Both the position numbers and the translations under genes were made by a program. The notes below the pieces were generated by a model, which saw nothing but the letters and a program-made list of their open reading frames with translations, had not been told where the DNA came from and searched no databases. From Desulfobacterales bacterium (lineage in GTDB: Bacteria > Desulfobacterota > Desulfobacteria > Desulfobacterales > UBA2174_A), in the NCBI GenBank assembly GCA_025454075.1, contig JALOPD010000033.1, positions 1-21,744 of the forward strand: a stretch of DNA of 21,744 nucleotides. The letters are read 5' to 3'. Below, piece after piece: positions 1-21,744 of this stretch; the stretch's first letter is position 1, and each line of letters starts with the position of its first letter.

Positions 1-438
1 CCCGAGGCCGTAGAGGATCAGAAAACCGATCCCGTTTCGGGTGAACAGGAACGGGATGTTCAGCCAGATCTCCTTGCCGTGCAGGTCTTCGTGCAGCCAG
101 GGGAACAGGTGGTTTTTCCCGATCAGCAGCACGAGGAAGCAGACCAGCGACAGCGGGAAAAACCCGGCGAAGGCCCCCGCCAGCCCGCTGAGAGGACCGG
201 TCCAGCGTGCCTTGACCGTGTGGGTGACCGCCGAAAAAAGCACCGCGCCCTGGGCCATGGCCGACCACAAAAGAAAATTGATGAGAAAGGCCTGCCAGGC
301 CCTCTGCGGGTGCGGGCCGAGGAGGCCGGCCAGGAAGGCCGCCAGGCCTACGGCGGCCAACACCGCCCCGAGGGTGAAAAGGGAGCGCGGCGGCGCGGCG
401 CGGCGGCCGGGCTCCGCCGGTGGCGTGGTCGTGTTCAT
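1..438 (-). CDS. actF: ActF-like quinone-binding membrane subunit of alternative complex III (5' part only)
   Basis: The first 146 codons of a gene that continues past the left window edge. It starts at ATG 438 and overlaps the actD stop codon (ATGA), which implies translational coupling. After a proline/arginine-rich cytoplasmic start, hydrophobic segments lie at about residues 19-41, 50-72 and 86-107. The stretch LINFLLWSAMAQGAVLFSA (residues 52-70) is typical of the NrfD-like quinone-interacting subunits of alternative complex III, and the third segment is followed by a loop with KNHLFPWLHED. The family normally has ten membrane helices and about 400 residues, so most of the protein is unseen. 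Its place directly after actD is unusual, because actE (a monohaem cytochrome c) commonly comes between them. The family assignment rests on context and this motif; actC-like alternatives are less likely because actC is already present. Confidence 0.8.
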   Translation of the reverse strand, partial: MNTTTPPAEPGRRAAPPRSLFTLGAVLAAVGLAAFLAGLLGPHPQRAWQAFLINFLLWSAMAQGAVLFSAVTHTVKARWTGPLSGLAGAFAGFFPLSLVCFLVLLIGKNHLFPWLHEDLHGKEIWLNIPFLFTRNGIGFLILYGLG

Positions 439-941
439 GCGAATACCTTGACCTCCCCGCCCTTCTTCTGGAAGAAATCCATCAACTCCCCTTCGCGGCC
501 GGCCGCACAGGCGGCCAGCACCCCGAAGTGCTCGCCCGAGCAGCGCGGGTCATAGCTCTCGAGCCCCCGGTAGTCCGGCAGGCGCGAGCAGACCAACAGG
601 CCGACCACGTTGCCGAAAACGGAGAACAGGATCGTGAACTCGAAGCCGACGATGAAAAAGGGGATCAGCGAAACGATCGGCTTGCCGCTGACGATCAGGT
701 TCCATTCCACCGCGGTGAAGATGGCCAGGGCGAAGCCGGTGAAAAACCCGACGATGCCCCCGGCCAGCGTGAACCAGCCCACGCGGCCCTTTTTCAGCTT
801 CAAGGCCTCCAGGATCCGGTGGCTGGGGATGGGACTGTGGGCGCGGCGGAAGCTGAACCCCGCCGCGGCCAGCTCCTGTATGGCCTTGGCGGCCTTGCCC
901 TCGTCCTTGAACAGGCCCATGATGCTTGCCTCACCCGGCAT
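435..941 (-). CDS. actD: ActD, DUF3341 membrane subunit of alternative complex III
   Basis: A 168-residue protein of the DUF3341 family, the small integral-membrane subunit ActD of alternative complex III. It begins with a soluble region containing GLFKDEGKAAKAIQELAAAG, the usual DUF3341 opening. Two hydrophobic helices follow, roughly residues 54-76 (WFTLAGGIVGFFTGFALAIF) and 90-117, joined by a short loop with VEWNLIVSGKP. The C-terminal domain is soluble and ends just inside the next gene. The first ATG (941) has AAGGAGA nine bases upstream and overlaps the actC end by 11 bases. A second ATG at 920 has GTGAGG upstream and gives the more common M-x-x-LF start, so either may be used. Overlaps on both sides mark a tightly coupled operon. 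The role in quinol:acceptor oxidoreduction is inferred from the family; ActD carries no cofactor. Confidence 0.88.
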   Translation of the reverse strand: MPGEASIMGLFKDEGKAAKAIQELAAAGFSFRRAHSPIPSHRILEALKLKKGRVGWFTLAGGIVGFFTGFALAIFTAVEWNLIVSGKPIVSLIPFFIVGFEFTILFSVFGNVVGLLVCSRLPDYRGLESYDPRCSGEHFGVLAACAAGREGELMDFFQKKGGEVKVFA

Positions 942-2235
942 GGTGCGCGGTCTCCTTCATCTCGGTCATGGACACGGAAGGCAAATGCTTGCAGAAGAGC
1001 AGGAACAGGAAAAAGAACAGGCTGAAGCTGCCGATCATGACGCAGTACTCCACCAGCCGAGGCGCATAGAGGCCCCAGGCGTGAGGGGCAAAGTCGTGGG
1101 CGACCCCGCCGACGATGATGACGAAACGCTCCCACCACATGCCGAAGTTCACTACCAGCGAGAGGGCGAAGAGCCAGGGGATGCTGCGGCGCACCTTTTT
1201 GAACAGAAAAAGCGAAGGCAGCAGGACGTTGCAGACGATCATGAAATAAAGACCGTAGGCGTACTCGCCCAGGGCGCGCCAGCGGAAGGACTCCCACTCC
1301 ACCGCGTTGTGGCTGTACCAGGCGATGAAGTACTCGGTGCCGTAGGCCAACCCCACGATGAGGCCGGTCAGGATCATGGTCTTCGCCACGTTCTCCAGGA
1401 CGTCCAGGGTGATGATGGCCTCGTAGCGGAAGATGCGGCGCAGGGGGATCATCAGGGTGAGCACCATGGCAAGCCCCGAGTGGATCGCGCCGGCGACGAA
1501 GTACGGCGCAAATATCGTGGTGTGCCAGCCCGGCACGATGCCGAGCGCGAAATCCCAGGACACGACGCTGTGAACCGATATCACCAGCGGGGTGGCGAGC
1601 GCCGCAAAGAAGAGGTAGCCGCGGCTGTAGTTCAGCCACTGGTCGTGGGCCCCGGTCCAGCCCAGGGAGAGCACCCGGAAGATCCTGTACCGCAGGCCGG
1701 TGGAGCGGTCGCGCACGACGGCCAGATCCGGCACCAGGCCGGTGTACCAGAACAGCGAACTCACCGTGAGATAGGTGCTGATAGCCACGACATCGAACAT
1801 CAGCGGCGACAGAAAGTTGGGCCACAGCAGCCGCTGGTTGGGGATCGGAAGCATGTAGTAAACCTGCCAGACCCGGCCCAGGTGGATGAAGGGGAAAAGC
1901 CCGGCACAGCAGACCGCGAACACGGTCATGGTCTCGGCCGCGCGCGCGATCGGGTTGCGCCAACCGGCCCGGAACAGGTGCAGGATGGCCGAAATGAGCG
2001 TCCCGGAGTGGGCGATACCGACCCAGAACACGAAATTGATGAGGTAGGTGCCCCAGGCCACGGGGATGTTCTGGCCGCCGACGCCGATGCCGGTGAAGAT
2101 CTGGTAGGCCCAGGCGGCGGCGCCCAGGAGCACGCCGCACAACAAGAGCGCGACAAAGACCCAGTAGCGCGGCCGGGGCCGCTCCAGGGTGTTCAGAACG
2201 GTCTGGTCGATCTGTGCGAAGGTCAGGTCGGTCAT
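931..2235 (-). CDS. actC: ActC, NrfD/PsrC-type quinol-binding membrane subunit
   Basis: A 434-residue polytopic membrane protein of the NrfD/PsrC family, matching ActC of alternative complex III, which oxidises membrane quinol and passes electrons to the Fe-S subunit ActB. About ten hydrophobic helices are visible. The segment WGTYLINFVFWVGIAHSGTL (about residues 61-80) is characteristic of ActC, and the N-terminal region before helix 1 is cytoplasmic and polar. The length is close to the family norm of 430-480. It lies 83 bases after actB, a gap that contains an inverted repeat, and its end overlaps actD by 11 bases. The ATG at 2235 is the first in-frame ATG after the gap; its ribosome-binding site is weak (no clear GGAGG in the CCGGACCAACAAAACC stretch before it), so translation may depend on the upstream structure. 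Assignment is strong from sequence and order. Confidence 0.92.
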   Translation of the reverse strand: MTDLTFAQIDQTVLNTLERPRPRYWVFVALLLCGVLLGAAAWAYQIFTGIGVGGQNIPVAWGTYLINFVFWVGIAHSGTLISAILHLFRAGWRNPIARAAETMTVFAVCCAGLFPFIHLGRVWQVYYMLPIPNQRLLWPNFLSPLMFDVVAISTYLTVSSLFWYTGLVPDLAVVRDRSTGLRYRIFRVLSLGWTGAHDQWLNYSRGYLFFAALATPLVISVHSVVSWDFALGIVPGWHTTIFAPYFVAGAIHSGLAMVLTLMIPLRRIFRYEAIITLDVLENVAKTMILTGLIVGLAYGTEYFIAWYSHNAVEWESFRWRALGEYAYGLYFMIVCNVLLPSLFLFKKVRRSIPWLFALSLVVNFGMWWERFVIIVGGVAHDFAPHAWGLYAPRLVEYCVMIGSFSLFFFLFLLFCKHLPSVSMTEMKETAHHAG

Positions 2236-2248
2236 GGTTTTGTTGGTC

Positions 2249-2300
2249 CGGTGTTTGGTGGTTCAGGTGTCTGGTTGTTTGGCAGAATACCCAAACACCG
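2249..2300. repeat. Inverted repeat in the actB-actC spacer
   Basis: The 10-base arm CGGTGTTTGG (2249-2258) is repeated in inverse orientation at 2291-2300, leaving a 32-base loop that itself contains related GGTGTCTGG and GTTTGG words. The structure occupies most of the 83-base gap between the actB stop and the actC start. It lacks a T-run, so it is not an intrinsic terminator. It could adjust the actB:actC ratio by stabilising mRNA or hiding the actC ribosome-binding site; that role is inference. Confidence 0.5.
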
Positions 2301-2318
2301 AAACACCCTGATACCGGC

Positions 2319-5258
2319 TCATACCTCGTGCAGCACCTTCTTGAGATATATCACGGCCGGCTTCGTGTTGAGATACCCCATGGCCTGGTAGGCCCGCGGG
2401 TCGTCGCAGAGCCGGCGCACGCGGCTGTCCCGGTCCATCAGATTGCCGAAGACCAGCGCGTCCGTCGGGCAGGTCTGGACGCAGGCCGGGACGATCTCGC
2501 CCTCCCGGATCGGCCGGTTCTCGTTCTTGGCGTTGGTGCGCGCCGCCTTGATGCGCTGGACGCAGAAGGAGCATTTCTCCATGACCCCCTTGCTGCGCAC
2601 GGTGACGTCGGGGTTGAGCTGCCAATGCATCGGCTCCGGCCACTCCCAGTCGAACCAGTTGAAGCGCCGCACCTTGTAGGGGCAGTTCTGCGAGCAGAAG
2701 CGCGTGCCGATGCAGCGGTTGTAGATCTGGTTGTTCAGGCCTTCCGAGGAGTGATGGGGCGCGTACACCGGGCAGACCGACTCGCAGGGGGCGTTGTCGC
2801 AGTGCTGGCAGAGCATGGGCAGGAACATCACCCGCTCCATGCGGCGTTCGTCGTGGTAGCGCACGATCTCCAGCCACGCCATCTCCCGCCCCTGGGCGAT
2901 GCGCTTCTCGCCGACGATGCCCACGTTGTTCTCGGCGTAGCAGGCTGCCGCGCAGGCGCCGCAGCCGGTGCACCGATCGAGGTCCACCACCATGGCCCAG
3001 CGGTAGTGGTCGTGGTCGTGCGCCGGGTAGAAGTCCCGCCGGGGATCGTAGCCCTCCGGCAGCGGCAGGGTAAGCGGGAAGTTGTCCATGGTGAGTCCGG
3101 TCTTGGCCGGGGGCGGTCCTTTCCGGAGCTCGGCCGGCGTGGTGGTCAAAATGAACGCGCGGCCATGCTGGGTACGGCTGCCGTCGGTGTGGGCCAGCTC
3201 GACTCTGCGGCCGGCGGCTTCGAGCTGGATGTCGGGCAGGCCGCATCCCGGCCCGCCGCAATTCGGTTCCACAGCGGCGGGCAATAGGGACAGCGGGTTG
3301 GCGCCGAGGTTCTCCGCGTATCGGCCGTAGGCGGTGTGCCCTTGCCCGGCGGCCATGAGAACCTGGCCGGGATGAACCACCTCGGCGGCATAGACCGGGG
3401 CCTCGAGGCTGCCCCAGGGCGAAGTGACCCGCACGACATCCGCCGTGCGGAGGCCTTTGGCCGCGGCGGTCCTCGGGTGCAGGATGACCGGGGACTGCCA
3501 GGCCACCCGGGAGATCGGGTCCGGGATTTCGCACAGCCAGGGTTTGTTCGCCCCGCGGCCGTCGAAAAGGCGCACGGACGGAACGGCCGCGAAGGCCAGC
3601 CCGGCCGGCGGGGGCTGGTACGGCAAAGCGAGGTGCCGGGGGAGCCGCTGCGGCCGTGCCGCCGGGGGGGCGCTGGCCGCCGGCCCCGCCGGCGGGAAAA
3701 GGCCTCCCTGCTGCAGGGCTTGCACCCACTCGAGCTCGTTGCGGATGCGGCCCGCCTTCCGAAGTCGCTCGGCGATGTAGGTCTTGTAGTCCGGCGCCGG
3801 TCGGGTTTCAAACCCGACGTCCAGGAAAAGGTCCCCGGCATGCGGTGCCCCGGTGATCCTGCCCATGGCCGGCTGGAGGGTGGAGACGAGTGAAGACCAC
3901 CCGCTGTAATCGTCCCAGGTTTCCAGCGGCAGGCTCGCCGGCAGGATGAGGTCGGCCCGCTGGGAGGTTTCGTCGAGGAAGTTGCTCAGACTGACGACAA
4001 ACAGCTCCGGGGTCTCCAAGGCGGCCTTGGCCCCGCTTTCCGGCGGCAGGCTGAAAACGGGGTTGACGTTGTTCAGGATCAGGACATCCGTCCGGCCGGA
4101 GGAGACGACTTTGAGCAGATCGAGCACATCGGCCCGGCGGCTGGCGGTCTCCACCCGGTGGCGGCTGGCCGCGTCGATGAGGAGGAGTTCGGGGTCGAGC
4201 AGAAGGTTCAGCAGGTTGGCCGCCAGGTTGGCGGCAAGGCCGTTGGCATCCGACTGCCCGCTGCCGGCGCCCAGCACCAGGGGTCGGCGGGCTTCGGCCA
4301 GGCGCACCACCAGTTGCTCGTACTGGGCCAGCGGGATGCCGGAGAGCTTGAGCACCGACTCCTGCGGGTAGGCCTCGGTGGCCTTCAGCAAGGCGTCGCG
4401 CAGGTCCGGCGGCAGGTGCTGACCGCGCCGGATGTCCAGCATCTGGCGCACCAGGCCCAGGGCGACCACCGCCTCGGTGCCCGGCGCGCAGGCGAGCCAG
4501 CGGTCCGCGTTGGCGCCGGTGAGCGTCTGAAACGGGCTCACCAGGAAAAAGAAACCCTTTTCGGGCCCGCGGGCGGCGTGCATGGCCTTGAACTTCCAGG
4601 CGTACTCCACCGGCGACAGCCAGGTTTCCAGGAATTCGGCGCCGAAGGCCAGCAGCACGTCGGCCTGGTCCAGGCGATAGGACACCAGGCCGTCCACGCC
4701 GAAGACCTCGCGGTTGGCGGCCTTGAGCGCTTCGTAGGCAAAGGGCTCGAAGACGACGGGCGGCGGCGAGTTCCAGTTCTTGAGCGCGGACCGGAAGATC
4801 TCCATCTGGCCTTCGCCGACCACCTCGGTCATGAGCCGCACCCGTTCGGGGCCCCTGCGGGCCGCTTCCCAGACCTTGGTCTTGAGCAGGGCCTGCGCAC
4901 GGTCGAAGCCGATGGACAAAAACCCGTCCTTTTCCTTCAGCAGTGGTGTTTTCAACCGGTCCGGGTTGTAGACGGCCTGCAGGGCGGCCTGACCCCGCAT
5001 ACAGAGCTTGCCGCGGTTGAGCGGGTGCAGAGGGTTGCCCTCGACCTTGACAACGCGCCCCTCGCGGTTCCTGGCGATGAGGCCGCAGCCGGCCGGGCAC
5101 TCCCGGCAGGTGGAGGCGTACCAGGTGGCCTTGCCGGTCACCATGTCTTCCGGCGCCTGGACCAAACTGTAGAGGTGCTTGGGGGACTCGGGGCTGCAGC
5201 CCGCGGCGAAAGAGACGCTGCCGAGACCGGCCAGCTTGAGGAAGGTGCGTCGGTTCAT
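2319..5258 (-). CDS. actB: ActB, fused molybdopterin-like and four-cluster Fe-S subunit of alternative complex III
   Basis: A 979-residue exported electron-transfer subunit. The twin-arginine signal NRRTFLKLAGLG is followed by a lipobox-like FAAGC (Cys21), suggesting Tat export and possibly lipid anchoring. Residues 51-86 hold a Cys-x2-Cys-x3-Cys...Cys motif (STCRECPAGCG, then GKLCMRG) at the head of a molybdopterin-oxidoreductase-like domain; in ActB proteins this domain is known to lack molybdenum. From residue 763 comes a ferredoxin-type domain with four cluster sites: CTGCGACAAAC, CQHCDNAPCESVCP, CIGTRFCSQNCP and CSFCVQRI/CVQTCP. The third has Thr in place of the second Cys, as expected for the single [3Fe-4S] cluster of this family. 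An upstream in-frame TTG (5276) is possible, but ATG 5258 gives a proper Tat peptide. The preceding gene on this strand is an aminopeptidase, not the pentahaem cytochrome actA that usually comes first. Confidence 0.93.
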   Translation of the reverse strand: MNRRTFLKLAGLGSVSFAAGCSPESPKHLYSLVQAPEDMVTGKATWYASTCRECPAGCGLIARNREGRVVKVEGNPLHPLNRGKLCMRGQAALQAVYNPDRLKTPLLKEKDGFLSIGFDRAQALLKTKVWEAARRGPERVRLMTEVVGEGQMEIFRSALKNWNSPPPVVFEPFAYEALKAANREVFGVDGLVSYRLDQADVLLAFGAEFLETWLSPVEYAWKFKAMHAARGPEKGFFFLVSPFQTLTGANADRWLACAPGTEAVVALGLVRQMLDIRRGQHLPPDLRDALLKATEAYPQESVLKLSGIPLAQYEQLVVRLAEARRPLVLGAGSGQSDANGLAANLAANLLNLLLDPELLLIDAASRHRVETASRRADVLDLLKVVSSGRTDVLILNNVNPVFSLPPESGAKAALETPELFVVSLSNFLDETSQRADLILPASLPLETWDDYSGWSSLVSTLQPAMGRITGAPHAGDLFLDVGFETRPAPDYKTYIAERLRKAGRIRNELEWVQALQQGGLFPPAGPAASAPPAARPQRLPRHLALPYQPPPAGLAFAAVPSVRLFDGRGANKPWLCEIPDPISRVAWQSPVILHPRTAAAKGLRTADVVRVTSPWGSLEAPVYAAEVVHPGQVLMAAGQGHTAYGRYAENLGANPLSLLPAAVEPNCGGPGCGLPDIQLEAAGRRVELAHTDGSRTQHGRAFILTTTPAELRKGPPPAKTGLTMDNFPLTLPLPEGYDPRRDFYPAHDHDHYRWAMVVDLDRCTGCGACAAACYAENNVGIVGEKRIAQGREMAWLEIVRYHDERRMERVMFLPMLCQHCDNAPCESVCPVYAPHHSSEGLNNQIYNRCIGTRFCSQNCPYKVRRFNWFDWEWPEPMHWQLNPDVTVRSKGVMEKCSFCVQRIKAARTNAKNENRPIREGEIVPACVQTCPTDALVFGNLMDRDSRVRRLCDDPRAYQAMGYLNTKPAVIYLKKVLHEV

Positions 5259-5308
5259 AGGCGCTCTCGACTCCAACCGCGGTTCACTGAGGTCGAAACC
5301 CTAAAGGA

Positions 5309-8476: not shown

Positions 8477-10396
8477 ATGAGACGAATCACCGCCTGCACC
8501 TATGACTGCCCGGACGCCTGCTCGCTGGTTTTGGAGCAGGGCGAGGACGGGGGCCTGCGGCTGACAGGCAACCCCGACAACCCCTTCACGCGCGGGGTCA
8601 TGTGCGCCAAGACCCGGCGACAGCTGCGGCGGCTGCGAAGCCCCCACCGCATCCTGAAGCCCCGGTTCAGGACCAAGGGCGGCTGGCAGGAGATCGGCTG
8701 GGAGGCGGCCTTCGACCTGTGCGCCGAAAAGATCCAGCGCCTGCGCAGCGAGCCGACCGCCATCCTGCACCTCCACAGCGACGGCGCCAAGGGGGTCCTC
8801 AAGGAGGCCGTCAACCTGTTCTTTGCTCAACTGGGGTCGAGCCGGATCAGGGGCTCGCTCTGCGACGCCGCCGGCTACATCGCCGGCGTCGAGGATTTCG
8901 GCGCGCGCGAGAACAACGACATCGAGGACCTGGCCAATGCCGCGGCCATCGTGAACTGGGGCAAGGATCTCTCGCGCAGCTCGATCCACACGGCCGCCGT
9001 CGTTCACCGGGCCCGCCGCCGGGGCGCGCGCGTGCTGACCATTTCGCCCGGCGGCGACGGCAACACCCCCTTTTCCGACAGCCGCATCCGTATCCGGCCG
9101 GGCACCGACCGCTTTCTGGCGGCCGCCGTGATCCGGCGGCTGATCGAGGTGGGACGCGTGCCGGAAGATGTGCTCATCCACACCCGCCGCCCGGAGACAT
9201 TCCTGGAGCTGGTCCGGGGCCGGTCGACGGAGGAGCTGCTGGCCGTATGCGACGTGACCCGGCCGGACGCCGAGAACCTCTTCCAAGCGTACGCCACGGT
9301 CAAGCCCCTGGCCACCTTCATCGGCGCCGGCCTGCAGCGCTACCGCTACGGCGGCGAGAACGTGCGCTTCATCAATGCCCTGGCGCTGCTTTCCGGCAAC
9401 ATCGGCCGCTCCGGCGGGGGCGTCTATTTCCACCTGCACTCCTACCGCAACCTTGACCTCGGCTGGATCAGGGGCCCGGGCCACAGGGGCCGGCGCGCCT
9501 TTCACATCGCCGCCATCGGCCCGGAGATCCTGGCCGCCCAGGACCCGCCGGTCCGGATGCTCTGGGTCAACGGCATCAATGTCGTCAACCAGGCCCCCGG
9601 CGCGCCGGAGACCGCCCGCGCCTTCGAGCGCGTGGAGTTCAAGGTGGTGGTGGACGCCTTCATGAACGACACGGCCGAGCGGGCCGACCTGGTCCTGCCC
9701 TGTGCGCTCATGCTCGAGCAGCAGGACGTCGTCGGGTCCTATCTGCACGAATACGTTCAATACGCCGCGGCAGCGGTGGCGCCGCCGCCGGAGGTCCGCA
9801 CCGACCTGTGGATCGTGACGGAGCTGGGCAAACGCCTGGACCCGCCGGTGGTCATGCCGACGGCGGAAGAGTGCCTGCAGACCGCCTTGACCTCGCCCCA
9901 TCTCGAGACCACCCTCGAAGCGCTGAAGACCAAGGGCTTCGTCCGCTCGAATCGGCCCCGGATCGCCTTCGAGGGGCTCCGGTTCGCCCATGCCGACGGG
10001 AAGTACCGGTTCCCGGGGCAGCTGCACGACGAGCCGCCGGCCCCGGCCGACTTCCCGCTGCGCCTGCTCACGCTGGTGCGGCGGACGGCCATCCACTCCC
10101 AGATCCTGCCGGAGGACCAGAAACCGTTTCCCCCCGTGTGGGTGGCACCCGACTGCCCGGCGCTGAAAGGCCTTGATCTTTCAAAGCCGGCGGCCCTAAT
10201 TTCACCTTTGGGCCGGTTGACGGTGACGGTCCGCCTGCTGCCCGGCCTGCACCCCGGCACGGTGGTTTACCGCCGGGGGGACTGGATGAATCGCGGGGGC
10301 GGCGCCAACCAACTGATCGCCGCGGGGCTGACGGACCTGGGCGGGGGGGCGCCGTTCTACGACCAATACGTCCGGCTTGAGAATTCCGGCGGCTGA
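8477..10396 (+). CDS. Cytoplasmic molybdopterin-dependent oxidoreductase (DMSO-reductase superfamily)
   Basis: A 639-residue molybdenum or tungsten bis-MGD enzyme of the DMSO reductase superfamily. The N-terminal [4Fe-4S] motif is Cys7, Cys11, Cys15 (CTYDCPDAC) and Cys43 (GVMCAKTR). Cys129 in GSLCDAAG lies where the protein ligand to the metal is normally found. Later segments match the two nucleotide-binding halves (VNWGKDLSRSS, LWVNGINVVNQAP, ADLVLPCALMLEQQDVVGSY) and a C-terminal beta-barrel ending in a molydopterin-dinucleotide-binding domain with RGDWMNRGGGANQLI. There is no Tat signal, so it should be cytoplasmic. No partner Fe-S or membrane subunit is adjacent, so it probably uses a soluble redox partner. 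The substrate is unknown; formate dehydrogenase-like or hydratase-like members of this group cannot be separated here. The ATG at 8477 has no obvious Shine-Dalgarno sequence. Confidence 0.88.
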   Translation: MRRITACTYDCPDACSLVLEQGEDGGLRLTGNPDNPFTRGVMCAKTRRQLRRLRSPHRILKPRFRTKGGWQEIGWEAAFDLCAEKIQRLRSEPTAILHLHSDGAKGVLKEAVNLFFAQLGSSRIRGSLCDAAGYIAGVEDFGARENNDIEDLANAAAIVNWGKDLSRSSIHTAAVVHRARRRGARVLTISPGGDGNTPFSDSRIRIRPGTDRFLAAAVIRRLIEVGRVPEDVLIHTRRPETFLELVRGRSTEELLAVCDVTRPDAENLFQAYATVKPLATFIGAGLQRYRYGGENVRFINALALLSGNIGRSGGGVYFHLHSYRNLDLGWIRGPGHRGRRAFHIAAIGPEILAAQDPPVRMLWVNGINVVNQAPGAPETARAFERVEFKVVVDAFMNDTAERADLVLPCALMLEQQDVVGSYLHEYVQYAAAAVAPPPEVRTDLWIVTELGKRLDPPVVMPTAEECLQTALTSPHLETTLEALKTKGFVRSNRPRIAFEGLRFAHADGKYRFPGQLHDEPPAPADFPLRLLTLVRRTAIHSQILPEDQKPFPPVWVAPDCPALKGLDLSKPAALISPLGRLTVTVRLLPGLHPGTVVYRRGDWMNRGGGANQLIAAGLTDLGGGAPFYDQYVRLENSGG

Positions 10397-10414
10397 CGCC
10401 GCCGGAATTCTCAA
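10377..10414. repeat. Perfect 17-bp inverted repeat across the stop codon
   Basis: Arms 10377-10393 and 10398-10414 are exact inverse copies with a 4-base loop TGAC. The TGA of that loop is the stop codon of the molybdopterin gene. The arms contain the word GAATTCCGGCGGC and its complement. No T-run follows, so it is not a standard intrinsic terminator, although the stem would be very stable. It lies 20 bases before the next gene start and may tune expression between the two genes or protect the upstream mRNA end. Confidence 0.75.
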
Positions 10415-10433
10415 CCGGTTGAAAGATGAAAGG

Positions 10434-11096
10434 ATGAATACTTTTTTTCAGGAAGAATTGCAGGGTATTTGCCGGGGTTGGGCGGCGGGCGTCAAGCGCA
10501 TCGGCGACAGCGGGGGCCGGATGGCTTTTTTCCGGGATGAGCTGTCGGCTTTTCTGGTCAATCGGACGCTTTTTGAGGGGCTCTTAAAGGCCATCACAAA
10601 CGGCGACCCTCACCCCGATCTGCGCCAGGAAACCCAGTTCGACAATGAGCTGGTCCTGCACCGCGACCCGGGCCGGCTTTTTTCTGTGCGCATGTACATC
10701 TTCGGCCCGGGCGTACATACCACCGTGCACGATCACTCCTCCTGGGGGGTGTCGGGGTCGGCGTTCGGGCCGCTCGAGGTGGTTCGCTACCGCCGCGAGG
10801 ACGACGGCTCGGACCCGGACCTGGCCCGGTTGGCAATGGCGGACCGTTATGCGCTGCGGCCGGGCGAAGTCGAAACAACCTTGCCGCTCGATCAGGGCAT
10901 CCACCGCACCGGCAACCCGGCCGAGGGAACCACCCTCATGGTCAGCGTCTACGGCACGCCCCTGCGGCGGCTTTACATCCAGCGCTTCAATCTCGAAAAC
11001 GGCGGCGTCCATCGTGTGTTTCCGCCGCGTTTCAAAAAGAAGATGCTCGCGGAGCAGGCCTTGAAGGCGATGGCGGCCGCCCCAAGGTCGGATTGA
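10434..11096 (+). CDS. Cysteine-dioxygenase-like cupin protein
   Basis: A 220-residue protein with the double-stranded beta-helix of the cysteine dioxygenase / 3-mercaptopropionate dioxygenase group, non-haem iron enzymes that oxidise thiols to sulfinates. The cupin motif HTTVHDHSSWGVSG supplies His99 and His101, and His157 in GIHRTGN is the expected third ligand of a 3-His iron site. The N-terminal 70 residues are helical, as in this family. The ATG at 10434 is chosen because the only upstream in-frame start is a TTG inside the inverted repeat; the ribosome site is weak (GAAAGATGAAAGG). It follows the molybdopterin gene by 37 bases, most of it hairpin. An oxygen-dependent thiol oxidation role is inferred from the family. 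In an anaerobe it might be used during oxygen exposure, or the fold may serve another reaction. Confidence 0.8.
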   Translation: MNTFFQEELQGICRGWAAGVKRIGDSGGRMAFFRDELSAFLVNRTLFEGLLKAITNGDPHPDLRQETQFDNELVLHRDPGRLFSVRMYIFGPGVHTTVHDHSSWGVSGSAFGPLEVVRYRREDDGSDPDLARLAMADRYALRPGEVETTLPLDQGIHRTGNPAEGTTLMVSVYGTPLRRLYIQRFNLENGGVHRVFPPRFKKKMLAEQALKAMAAAPRSD

Positions 11097-19239: not shown

Positions 19240-19902
19240 CTATTTAGTCGACTTTGCCCTTGCAGGAAGAAATCGCGTGAATGGGCGTTTGGCGCTGAGG
19301 ATCAGGCCGGCAACCATGCACCCCAAAGCCGTCAGGGCAACCAGGCAGGGGTTGAAAGGAGCCGAATCGATCGATGCCGTTTCGATAAAACACCCGGCAC
19401 CGCCGCCGCTGCCGCCGCCGCTGCTTCCGCTGCCGCCACCGTCCACATCCGTATTCGAACAGGGGGCGATCACATCGCCGACTTCGGCACACACCGAGTT
19501 CGAGAAAGAGCTTTCGTTTCCTTCGGTGTCATAGGCCGTCACCGCAAAATAGTAGCGAGCGCCTTTTTCAAGGCCGGTGACGGTGAAGTCCGGGCTGCTT
19601 GGGTTGGCGAGCTCACCCGTGGTGACATAGCCGAACAGATTATATGGGGGGCCCGACGTGCCCTTATTGAGATACACCCCATATCCCTCCAGATCGGATT
19701 CCGCGTTGGAATCCCATGCCAGCGTCACATCGACGGCAGATGCCCGGCCGGCGGCCAGCAAAACAATCAGAAAAAACAGTCCGGCGCCCAAAAATCTGAA
19801 AGCGGCATTTAAGATCTTTTTCTGATTCATCGATCGATAGCTGGGCAGGAAATGAAAAAGATGCTGGCACGGCACGGCTGCTGCGAAAAAAGCTGAAAAC
19901 AT
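19240..19902 (-). CDS. Secreted fibronectin type III protein with CFI-box C-terminal anchor
   Basis: A 220-residue exported protein. A signal peptide (KKILNAAFRFLGAGLFFLI, cut near ASA-VDV, residue 56) is followed by one fibronectin type III domain (about 57-141; VTLAWDSN, GYGVYLN, YYFAVTAYDTEGNES). A Gly/Ser-rich linker (155-170) then leads to CFIETAS (Cys171), a hydrophobic helix (about 188-206) and an Arg/Lys-rich tail. This tail fits the CFI-box-CTERM type of C-terminal sorting signal, so the protein is probably processed and held at the cell surface. ATG 19902 has a perfect GGAGG eight bases upstream; ATG 19830 would give a more ordinary signal peptide (MNQKK start) but has no ribosome site. 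A ydaO-type riboswitch, its own promoter and its own terminator make it a single-gene unit. Its binding partner and function are unknown. Confidence 0.85.
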   Translation of the reverse strand: MFSAFFAAAVPCQHLFHFLPSYRSMNQKKILNAAFRFLGAGLFFLIVLLAAGRASAVDVTLAWDSNAESDLEGYGVYLNKGTSGPPYNLFGYVTTGELANPSSPDFTVTGLEKGARYYFAVTAYDTEGNESSFSNSVCAEVGDVIAPCSNTDVDGGGSGSSGGGSGGGAGCFIETASIDSAPFNPCLVALTALGCMVAGLILSAKRPFTRFLPARAKSTK

Positions 19903-19910
19903 GGTCTGCA

Positions 19911-19944
19911 CCTCCGGAATCGAGATTGGAGAGGAAAGACCTCC
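19911..19944 (-). promoter_or_regulatory. Candidate translational switch between riboswitch and start codon
   Basis: On the minus strand the word CCTCTCC (19934-19928) can pair either with an upstream GGAGG (19944-19940) or with the true Shine-Dalgarno GGAGG (19915-19911). The two pairings exclude each other, a layout typical of riboswitch expression platforms that hide or free the ribosome site. The direction of control by ligand cannot be read from sequence alone. Confidence 0.45.
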
Positions 19945-19969
19945 GTTCGACTCCGAAGGTTCCCCTCAT

Positions 19970-20070
19970 CGATGCCTACGAGGTTAGCTGATGGGCTAGG
20001 GCCGATAAGGTTACCCTTCGTCGGTAGACGATTAGCCCCAAAGAAATGGGTCCCCCGTTTCCGGCAACAC
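19970..20070 (-). ncRNA. ydaO/yuaA-type cyclic-di-AMP riboswitch
   Basis: The leader RNA of the secreted FnIII gene carries the conserved words of the ydaO (cyclic di-AMP) riboswitch in order: GGGGGACCC (20056-20048), GGGGCTAATC (20039-20030), a 5-bp hairpin TCGTC/GACGA (20031-20018), AGGGTAACCTT, and the hallmark 3' block CAGCTAACCTCGTAGGC (19990-19974). A closing P1 helix can form between TGCC (20066-20063) and GGCA (19976-19973), and GGGCTA/TAGCCC forms an internal helix. Cyclic di-AMP riboswitches of this class are known mainly from Firmicutes and Actinobacteria, usually before cell-wall, potassium or osmolyte genes. The identification is by eye from recalled consensus. Confidence 0.82.
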
Positions 20071-20092
20071 CGGAATTAGGCAATATTGAAAT

Positions 20093-20185: not shown

Positions 20186-20647
20186 TCAGGCGAGCGTTTC
20201 CGGTAAAGGGGCGGCGCTGCAAGCCTCGGAATGCCGCTTGATCTGGTCGAGCATCTGCACGGTGAGCCGGTGCAAGCGTTTGGGCACCCCGACCAAATGC
20301 CCCAGGGACAGCAGCGGCCCTTTGAATGTCTCAACACTCTCCAAAAGCACCCCGTCGGCAAGTTCCCGGAAGCGCCAGGTGTGCACGGCCCGGATGCCGA
20401 ACCGCTCGCCCTCCCAGACGACCTCCCGGCCCGGATCGCAGCTGACCACCCGCGGTTCCACCCGCACCGGGAAGATGATGGGCTTGACCACGAACGTGAA
20501 GCAGGCGCCACCTGTCAGTGCCTCCCCCTCAACGAACCGACAGCTGTTGCAGGCGGTGTTCCAGTCCTTCCAGTCGTCCAAGTGCGAAAACACCCGCCAG
20601 ACGACCGGCAGCGGTGCGTGGATATTCACTTCAGCTTGGATGATCAT
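20186..20647 (-). CDS. SRPBCC (START/Bet v 1-like) family protein
   Basis: A 153-residue soluble protein of the SRPBCC superfamily, helix-grip folds that enclose a hydrophobic ligand. The opening IIQAEVNIHAPLPVVWRVF and the DWKDWNTACNS turn are typical of the polyketide-cyclase/YndB-like group, and the C-terminal long helix (LVGVPKRLHRLTVQMLDQIK) would close the cavity. The length fits. AAGAGA lies six bases before the ATG. A possible promoter (TTGCGG at 20725-20720, 16 bases, TATGAT at 20703-20698) precedes it, divergent from the OsmC gene. No ligand or pathway can be assigned from sequence or neighbours. Confidence 0.82.
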   Translation of the reverse strand: MIIQAEVNIHAPLPVVWRVFSHLDDWKDWNTACNSCRFVEGEALTGGACFTFVVKPIIFPVRVEPRVVSCDPGREVVWEGERFGIRAVHTWRFRELADGVLLESVETFKGPLLSLGHLVGVPKRLHRLTVQMLDQIKRHSEACSAAPLPETLA

Positions 20648-20725: not shown

Positions 20726-20798
20726 CCCGAGCCCATGATGGCTGCCGGACGCGGTGGCGGTTCTCCAGCCGCTCCCCACTCTTTTCAAGGAGGTTTCC

Positions 20799-21272
20799 AT
20801 GGCCGACGAAGTAGCTTACACCTCACGCGTCAAAATCGAACGCATCAAGGGGCCGCTGCGCCGGGCGTATCTGCCGCAGGTTCCCACACCCGTATTTTTC
20901 GGGGTGCACTCGGAAATCGCTCAACACTACGGGGTCGACACCAACGTCCACGAACCGCACGCCGCGACTCTCGACTACGTCGTGGCGGCCGCCGCGGGCT
21001 GACTGACCGGGACCTTCGGAGGCGCGCTGGAGGCGCGCAAAATCCCGGCCGGCGATGGACGGCTGGTGGCGGAAGCCCGGGGCGAAGTGGAGCGCGACGG
21101 CAAGGTGCTGGTGATCAAGCGCATTCATGCGGACTACCATCTCAAGTTGGACCCCGCCCAGCGCGAAACCGCGCAAAGGGCGCACGACATGCATGCCGAC
21201 TTCTGCCCGGTGGCCCGCTCCTTCAAGGGCTGCATCCAGATCACGACCCGGCTGCACATGGAGGATGCTTAA
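20799..21272 (+). CDS. Selenocysteine-containing OsmC-family protein (UGA read as Sec68)
   Basis: A 157-residue OsmC/Ohr-family protein when the in-frame TGA at 21000-21002 is read as selenocysteine (residue 68). The TGA falls in LDYVVAAAAG-U-LTGTFGGAL, exactly where this family has its peroxidatic cysteine (AAxAxC-L). The second conserved cysteine is present as Cys136 in HADFCPVARSFKG, and Cys145 follows. Frame and family similarity continue unbroken to the TAA at 21270, with no other stop. A stable hairpin follows the TGA at SECIS distance. OsmC proteins reduce organic hydroperoxides with a dithiol pair; a selenol would raise reactivity. AAGGAGG lies five bases before ATG 20799. OsmC-like selenoproteins have been described in other bacteria. 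A conventional gene caller would give two fragments (to 21002 and from 21066). A nonsense mutation is the alternative. Confidence 0.82.
21007..21048 (+). promoter_or_regulatory. Bacterial SECIS-like hairpin
   Basis: Just after the TGA codon, an outer helix CCGGGA/TCCCGG (21007-21012, 21043-21048) encloses a 6-bp stem GCGCGC (21022-21027 and 21033-21038) with apical loop UGGAG, 26-30 bases after the codon. Bacterial SECIS elements usually have their apical loop about 16-37 bases after UGA with a G among the first two loop bases; both conditions are met. A small CCT-TCGG-AGG hairpin may compete inside. Confidence 0.65.
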
Positions 21273-21387: not shown

Positions 21388-21744
21388 ATGGCTGCGAAAA
21401 AGATTCTCATGCTGGTGGGGGACTTCGTCGAGGACTACGAGGTGATGGTTCCTTTCCAAGCCCTTTTGGCCGTCGGGCACACGGTGCACGCCGTCTGTCC
21501 CGGCAAAAAGGCGGGAGAAATCGTGCGCACGGCGATACACGATTTCGAGGGCGACCAGACTTACAGTGAAAAACGTGGCCACAACTTCACCCTCAATGCC
21601 GCCTTCGACGAGGTGAAGGCTGAGGGCTACGACGGCCTGGTGATTCCGGGCGGCCGGGCCCCGGAATACATCCGCCTGAACCCCAAGGTCATCGAGATCG
21701 TCAAGCATTTTGCAGGGGCCGGCAAGCCCATCGCCAGCATCTGC
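21388..21744 (+). CDS. DJ-1/PfpI family protein (5' part only)
   Basis: The first 119 codons of a DJ-1/PfpI superfamily gene cut by the right window edge. Visible parts are the opening strand [20 protein letters not shown], in which the Glu of VEDYE matches the conserved acid near the active site, the VCPGKKAGE turn, the [16 protein letters not shown] segment with the oxyanion glycines, and GKPIASIC, whose final Cys is the nucleophile-elbow cysteine and the last residue in the window. PfpI-type members are described as proteases, glyoxalases or stress chaperones, so the activity is open. AAGGAGG lies six bases before ATG 21388. It follows the seleno-OsmC gene in the same direction, which suggests a shared role in oxidative or electrophile stress. 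Confidence 0.92.

Follow-up and report, generated by a model that had tools for sequence, protein, structure and literature searches.

OsmC-like proteins with selenocysteine (Sec) at the redox-active site were described in 2005, when three sequences with the motif UxxT were reported from Sargasso Sea data (PMC1088965), and five sequences followed in 2008 from the Global Ocean Sampling (GOS) data (PMC2398784). They are also listed in PMC9312934 and in PMC13188914, the latter again printing the UxxT redox motif. For the peroxidase Ohr, PMC5962072 gives a catalytic triad of Cys61, Arg19 and Glu51, with Cys125 as the resolving residue. Here, we describe a gene of the Sec-containing kind at positions 20,799–21,272 of contig JALOPD010000033.1 (assembly GCA_025454075.1) from a Desulfobacterales bacterium; “the window” denotes the whole 21,744-nt stretch that was analysed. 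The best explanation of the data as a whole is that this gene encodes an OsmC/Ohr-superfamily selenoprotein with UGA 68 decoded as Sec, which we hold with high confidence. Sec coding at codon 68 is in itself almost certain, since relatives in several phyla share both the TGA and a downstream RNA hairpin.

The first-pass annotation had referred to OsmC-like selenoproteins as already known, and given their publication since 2005 this kind of selenoprotein is indeed not new. The published examples resemble the window gene in belonging to PF02566/COG1765, in having Sec at the redox-active site and in a hairpin like a selenocysteine insertion sequence (SECIS) past the UGA. They differ in motif, UxxT as opposed to U-L-T-G-T here, where position +3 is Gly in every row of the three subgroups, a comparison made by printed motif and not by sequences. 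They differ also in number, with three and five sequences against TGA in 80 loci (the best of 338) and 82 sampled places here; judging by these numbers, the branch seems to be much more widespread than the literature counts suggest. With the Ohr/OsmC peroxidases the window protein shares the predicted fold and the two redox positions, and it has candidates for their Arg and acidic residue; it differs in having Sec for the peroxidatic Cys and Asp for Glu. Its identity to the uncharacterised Ta0195 of Thermoplasma acidophilum (2onf) is 13%.

The reading frame on the forward strand runs from the ATG at 20799 to the TAA at 21270–21272, and the TGA at 21000–21002 is its sole internal stop. The features of the gene are as follows.

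20787..20793, forward strand: Shine-Dalgarno sequence AAGGAGG, read in the sequence, with the ATG starting 5 nt later
20799..21272, forward strand: OsmC-like selenoprotein gene, 157 aa with Sec68; single-TGA frame, PF02566, predicted OsmC/Ohr fold
21000..21002, forward strand: in-frame TGA, codon 68, proposed selenocysteine; TGA in 81/81 genes, opposite the OsmC peroxidatic Cys
21022..21038, forward strand: SECIS-like hairpin GCGCGCU-GGA-GGCGCGC, 7 pairs, starting 19 nt past the TGA
21204..21206, forward strand: TGC codon of Cys136, proposed resolving cysteine; Cys in 119/121 aligned rows, opposite the second OsmC cysteine

Compared with the nearest relative (L006), dN/dS was about 0.10 before the TGA and about 0.13 after it; the low value after the TGA indicates protein-level selection on the downstream half.

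The read-through product of 157 aa matched PF02566 (OsmC) with an E value of 9.7e-13 and 48.8 bits (cut-off 27.5), and structure prediction gave an OsmC/Ohr-like fold. The MAFFT alignment puts the TGA column opposite Cys59 of E. coli OsmC and matches Cys136 to the cysteine of its GCPVS motif, so that both active-site cysteine positions of OsmC/Ohr are matched, the first by Sec68 and the second by Cys136. The initial proposal that the TGA stands in place of the conserved peroxidatic cysteine of an otherwise intact OsmC-like frame, with the resolving cysteine kept, was thus borne out. Profile alignments also placed the TGA column opposite Cys in T. thermophilus OsmC (1ukk) and G. sulfurreducens 2opl, in weak matches with E values of 0.28 and 0.15, respectively. 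Among the 120 listed database homologues (of 636), the site residue is Trp (tryptophan) in 97, Cys in 17, Leu in two, Ala, Gly and Arg in one each and a gap in one; the alignment with OsmC homologues that had been suggested as a check therefore does find Cys opposite the TGA. Across three Sec sets, G18, R21, Y44, T57, U68, G71 and T72 are invariant, and D59, C136 and P137 are kept at 99% or more. R21 and D59 are candidates for the Arg/acid catalytic pair; the residues aligned with them in E. coli OsmC are Ser and Glu, respectively, in a region where the alignment is weak.

To find relatives, one-genome-per-species contigs were scanned with two peptide patterns that omit the Sec site, and 338 loci were confirmed, of which the best 80 were kept. 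All 80 have TGA at the site, giving 81/81 with the window gene; L015 has an additional in-frame TAA downstream. Samples from several phyla were also searched with a family profile, and each place spanning the site was read in the DNA. Matches were found in 28/301 genomes (29 places) of the sample around Candidatus Lucifugimonas (Chloroflexota), in 26/297 around L009 (a delta-type metagenome-assembled genome, MAG), in 24/247 (25 places) around L071 (Acidobacteriota), in 2/64 around L016 (titled Gemmatimonadetes) and in 1/219 around L069 (titled Rhizobiales). Among the 83 places, TGA was read in every one of the 82 that span the site; the remaining place, in G703, starts past it. Cys-type genes were absent from the sampled genomes and were encountered only as database proteins, and 72 pattern matches on viral contigs included no relative. 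An occurrence of Pseudomonadota type was set aside: the single hit among the 219 genomes of that sample was the seed bin G873 itself, where the gene lies on a contig of 3.3 kb, probably mis-binned, and the genome has no clear tRNA-Sec. Separately, G309 was seen to hold two copies of a TGA-bearing OsmC gene.

The SECIS-like hairpin proposed past the TGA was recovered, with a stem at 21022–21028/21032–21038 and the loop GGA, with its apical G, at 21029–21031, 26 nt past the TGA. When synonymous codons were resampled (up to 81 sequences), the stability signal was confined to codons 6–12 past the TGA (mean z −1.77, 80% of sequences below −1.5), and the other 29 offsets had mean z from −0.44 to +0.40; for the window sequence alone, codons 7–13 gave z −2.86 (p 0.02). 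Codon usage was correspondingly narrow (n = 81), with GCG in 74/81 at codons 8 and 11, CTG in 74/81 at codon 9, and CGC, CGT and CGA in 54, 25 and 2 sequences at codon 12. Among 79 distinct sequences, standard pairs fill 96.4% of stem pair cells as against 94.1 ± 0.3 after shuffling, and the covariation score exceeded all 500 shuffles, a score that relatedness can also give without structure. One stem pair is telling, the only one of the seven to vary on both sides: in Ala codon 8 the third base, which is silent, covaries with the second base of codon 11 (GCG/GCG, GCA/GTG, GCC/GGG). This pair is Watson-Crick in 101/112 sequences and pairing in 105/112, and it formed in 89/98 distinct sequences as compared with a maximum of 75 in 10,000 permutations. 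The set of 114 sequences used for this comparison was drawn up without the duplicates L083 and L123, the group-2 types L137 and L138, 24 group-2 loci, and L143, L144 and L147–L149; in it, G occupies the first two loop positions in 114/114 and all seven pairs form in 94/114. An Rfam search with the hairpin returned one meaningless match (E 4.2).

The machinery for Sec was assessed in 30 hand-chosen genomes among those carrying the 80 loci, and then in 10 more. Counting tRNA-Sec from 64 bits up, we found it in 26 of the 30 (27 with the tool's own cut-off, one at 47.0 bits), SelB over its cut-off in 27 and SelA in 29, and all but one (G028) have at least two of the three; nine of the 10 further carriers have tRNA-Sec. 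In the Chloroflexota sample, tRNA-Sec was present in 24/28 carriers vs 190/273 non-carriers (Fisher p 0.08), and in two other samples in 45/49 vs 23/31 (p 0.05; G703, a partial match, excluded). Not one of the 50 Chloroflexota genomes that have neither tRNA-Sec nor SelA carries the gene (with either marker counted, p 0.007), and pooling over samples gave p 0.0003, kinship being uncorrected in all of these tests. Given the high background of machinery in non-carriers, this association serves as supporting evidence only. Together, the conserved TGA, the conserved and covarying hairpin, the Sec machinery of the relatives and the active-site alignment strongly support the use of selenocysteine put forward in the first-pass annotation.

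Several observations weigh against this conclusion. One is that Trp stands at the site in 97 of the 120 listed database proteins (of 636), as would be expected if TGA were decoded as tryptophan under code 4 or a similar code. We consider such decoding very improbable. Nine of the 13 other marked genes of the window terminate in TGA, which is evidence against TGA being read as Trp throughout, and all 13 lack internal stops and use TGG for Trp. Moreover, TGG occurs at the site in none of the genes that were read as DNA, OsmC itself carries Cys there, and the Trp rows, mostly from short metagenome contigs, reach at most about 92% identity to loci whose codon is TGA. The Trp entries are most likely products of code-4 gene calling of TGA on short contigs, as judged from the rows and not from the DNA of those contigs. 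It could also be argued that the TGA is a sequencing error or a true stop in a pseudogene with a 67-aa product, as the only break in the frame is one codon that lies a single base away from TGC or TGT; yet the identical TGA in 80/80 relatives, purifying selection on both halves and the conserved, covarying hairpin leave this explanation hardly credible. The hairpin has weak points of its own: just one of the seven stem pairs varies on both sides, five or fewer pairs form in 10/114 sequences, five SAR202-like loci have an alternative stem, and L084 and L127 have only four pairs. As for the machinery, the draft genome of L006 (G028), the nearest relative, showed SelA only (no SelB over the cut-off and a tRNA-Sec score of 47.0 bits, not clear), and the complete-looking chromosome G001 (L001) has SelA and SelB but a top tRNA-Sec score of 43 bits. 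Finally, the product missed the cut-off of the OsmC subfamily TIGR03562 by far (21.0 vs 85.8 bits).

Accepting Sec at codon 68, a second question is what the protein does. SelB and Sec-tRNA would decode UGA 68 under the direction of the hairpin beginning 19 nt downstream. By homology with Ohr/OsmC, the Sec68 selenolate on the central helix would then act on an organic hydroperoxide and reduce it with the help of Arg21 and Asp59. The selenenic acid would be resolved through a selenenylsulfide with Cys136, and regeneration would fall to a lipoyl protein or thioredoxin. Judging by homology, we regard peroxidase chemistry of this kind as fairly likely. An OsmC-fold selenoprotein without a peroxidase role, e.g., a thiol-disulfide/selenol redox switch or another electrophile-handling enzyme, is a less likely alternative that deserves some weight. 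Against it stand the retention of both redox positions together with the invariant Arg and the acidic residue, and the usual role of Sec in redox catalysis.

The window gene belongs to a wider set of TGA-bearing genes. Its nearest relative is L006, from a Desulfobacterales MAG, with 80% identity and tree support of 100/99. Group 1 has U-L-T-G-T and close variants and includes the window gene, group 2 has mostly U-M-M-G-T and takes in 24 of the 26 delta-type genomes, and group 3 has U-M-Y/F-G-T (10/12 loci of one fetched set). In the subgroup alignment and tree, the “U3” set takes in L119 and L120 and the “U2” set takes in L084, all three of which are group 1. The group 2 hairpin is a different one in another register. 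By motif, the TGA-bearing subgroups other than that of the window gene are UMMGT, UMYGT and UMLGT (L085–L108, L109–L118, and L139–L142 with L145), with hairpins that differ in sequence or register. In the tree, Cys rows are interspersed among Sec rows, and the direction of Sec/Cys change is unproven because the branch leading to E. coli OsmC is saturated and 23/66 inner branches are open. Other residues were seen at the redox site of database proteins P0072 and P0076 (Leu), P0038 (Ala), P0110 (Gly) and P0114 (Arg); as P0076 lies on a 5.9-Mb contig, its loss of the redox residue is possibly real.

We are inclined, with moderate confidence, to see here an OsmC branch in which Sec is the rule and Cys the exception. 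It would comprise at least three subgroups whose hairpins are conserved and would extend over delta-type bacteria, Chloroflexota, Acidobacteriota and other lineages; forms with Cys, Leu, Ala, Gly or Arg would be dispersed within it as if from Sec loss, and Trp would arise through code-4 calling. It had been anticipated that automated annotation would split or miss the gene, and this is seen in relatives: P0095 (89 aa, 19 member sequences) consists of the second half alone and starts directly past the site, and in most of the full-length entries listed the site residue is Trp. A literature search, which covered little subscription literature and no supplements, found no description of an OsmC branch dominated by Sec, and words beginning with “Osm” are absent from the main text of PMC8318568 and PMC12013277. 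The Sec dominance of the branch and its misreading as Trp may thus be new to the literature.

Clustering of open reading frames (ORFs) in the 4-kb flanks of the 81 loci revealed no conserved operon partner, every neighbour family being limited to 12 loci or fewer, and the window genes fell in none of the 22 displayed flank-ORF clusters. Given this, the DJ-1/PfpI and SRPBCC neighbours give no functional hint. The other features of the window are listed below.

21388–21744, forward strand: DJ-1/PfpI family gene (96.5 bits), truncated by the window end, 115 nt past the OsmC gene; neighbour not conserved
20186–20647, reverse strand: Polyketide_cyc2 (SRPBCC-type) protein gene, upstream of and divergent to the OsmC gene
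19958–20092, reverse strand: cyclic di-AMP (ydaO/yuaA) riboswitch (96.3 bits, cut-off 38)
19240–19911, reverse strand: fibronectin-III-domain protein gene, just downstream of the riboswitch
2319–5276, reverse strand: 985-aa fused subunit resembling QrcB and QrcC (255 and 229 bits, below the cut-offs of 440 and 400)

The SRPBCC-type protein also weakly matched an Rv0910 toxin model (33.8 bits, below the cut-off of 100). The genes that follow the 985-aa subunit presumably encode NrfD- and DUF3341-type subunits, judging by their look, and the region 1–5276 (reverse strand) may encode a respiratory complex of the alternative-complex-III or Qrc type. The 239-aa open frame at 10377–11096 (forward strand) had no Pfam match at E 0.001.

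The covariation at a silent base provides an internal test of the hairpin and could help SECIS predictors. A Sec-dominant branch, if real, would escape discovery methods that depend on most homologues having Cys, and code-4 gene calling would leave it disguised as Trp in protein databases. A selenoprotein family known from a handful of sequences gains here a well-supported and abundant Sec-using branch, whose hosts are mostly uncultured bacteria.
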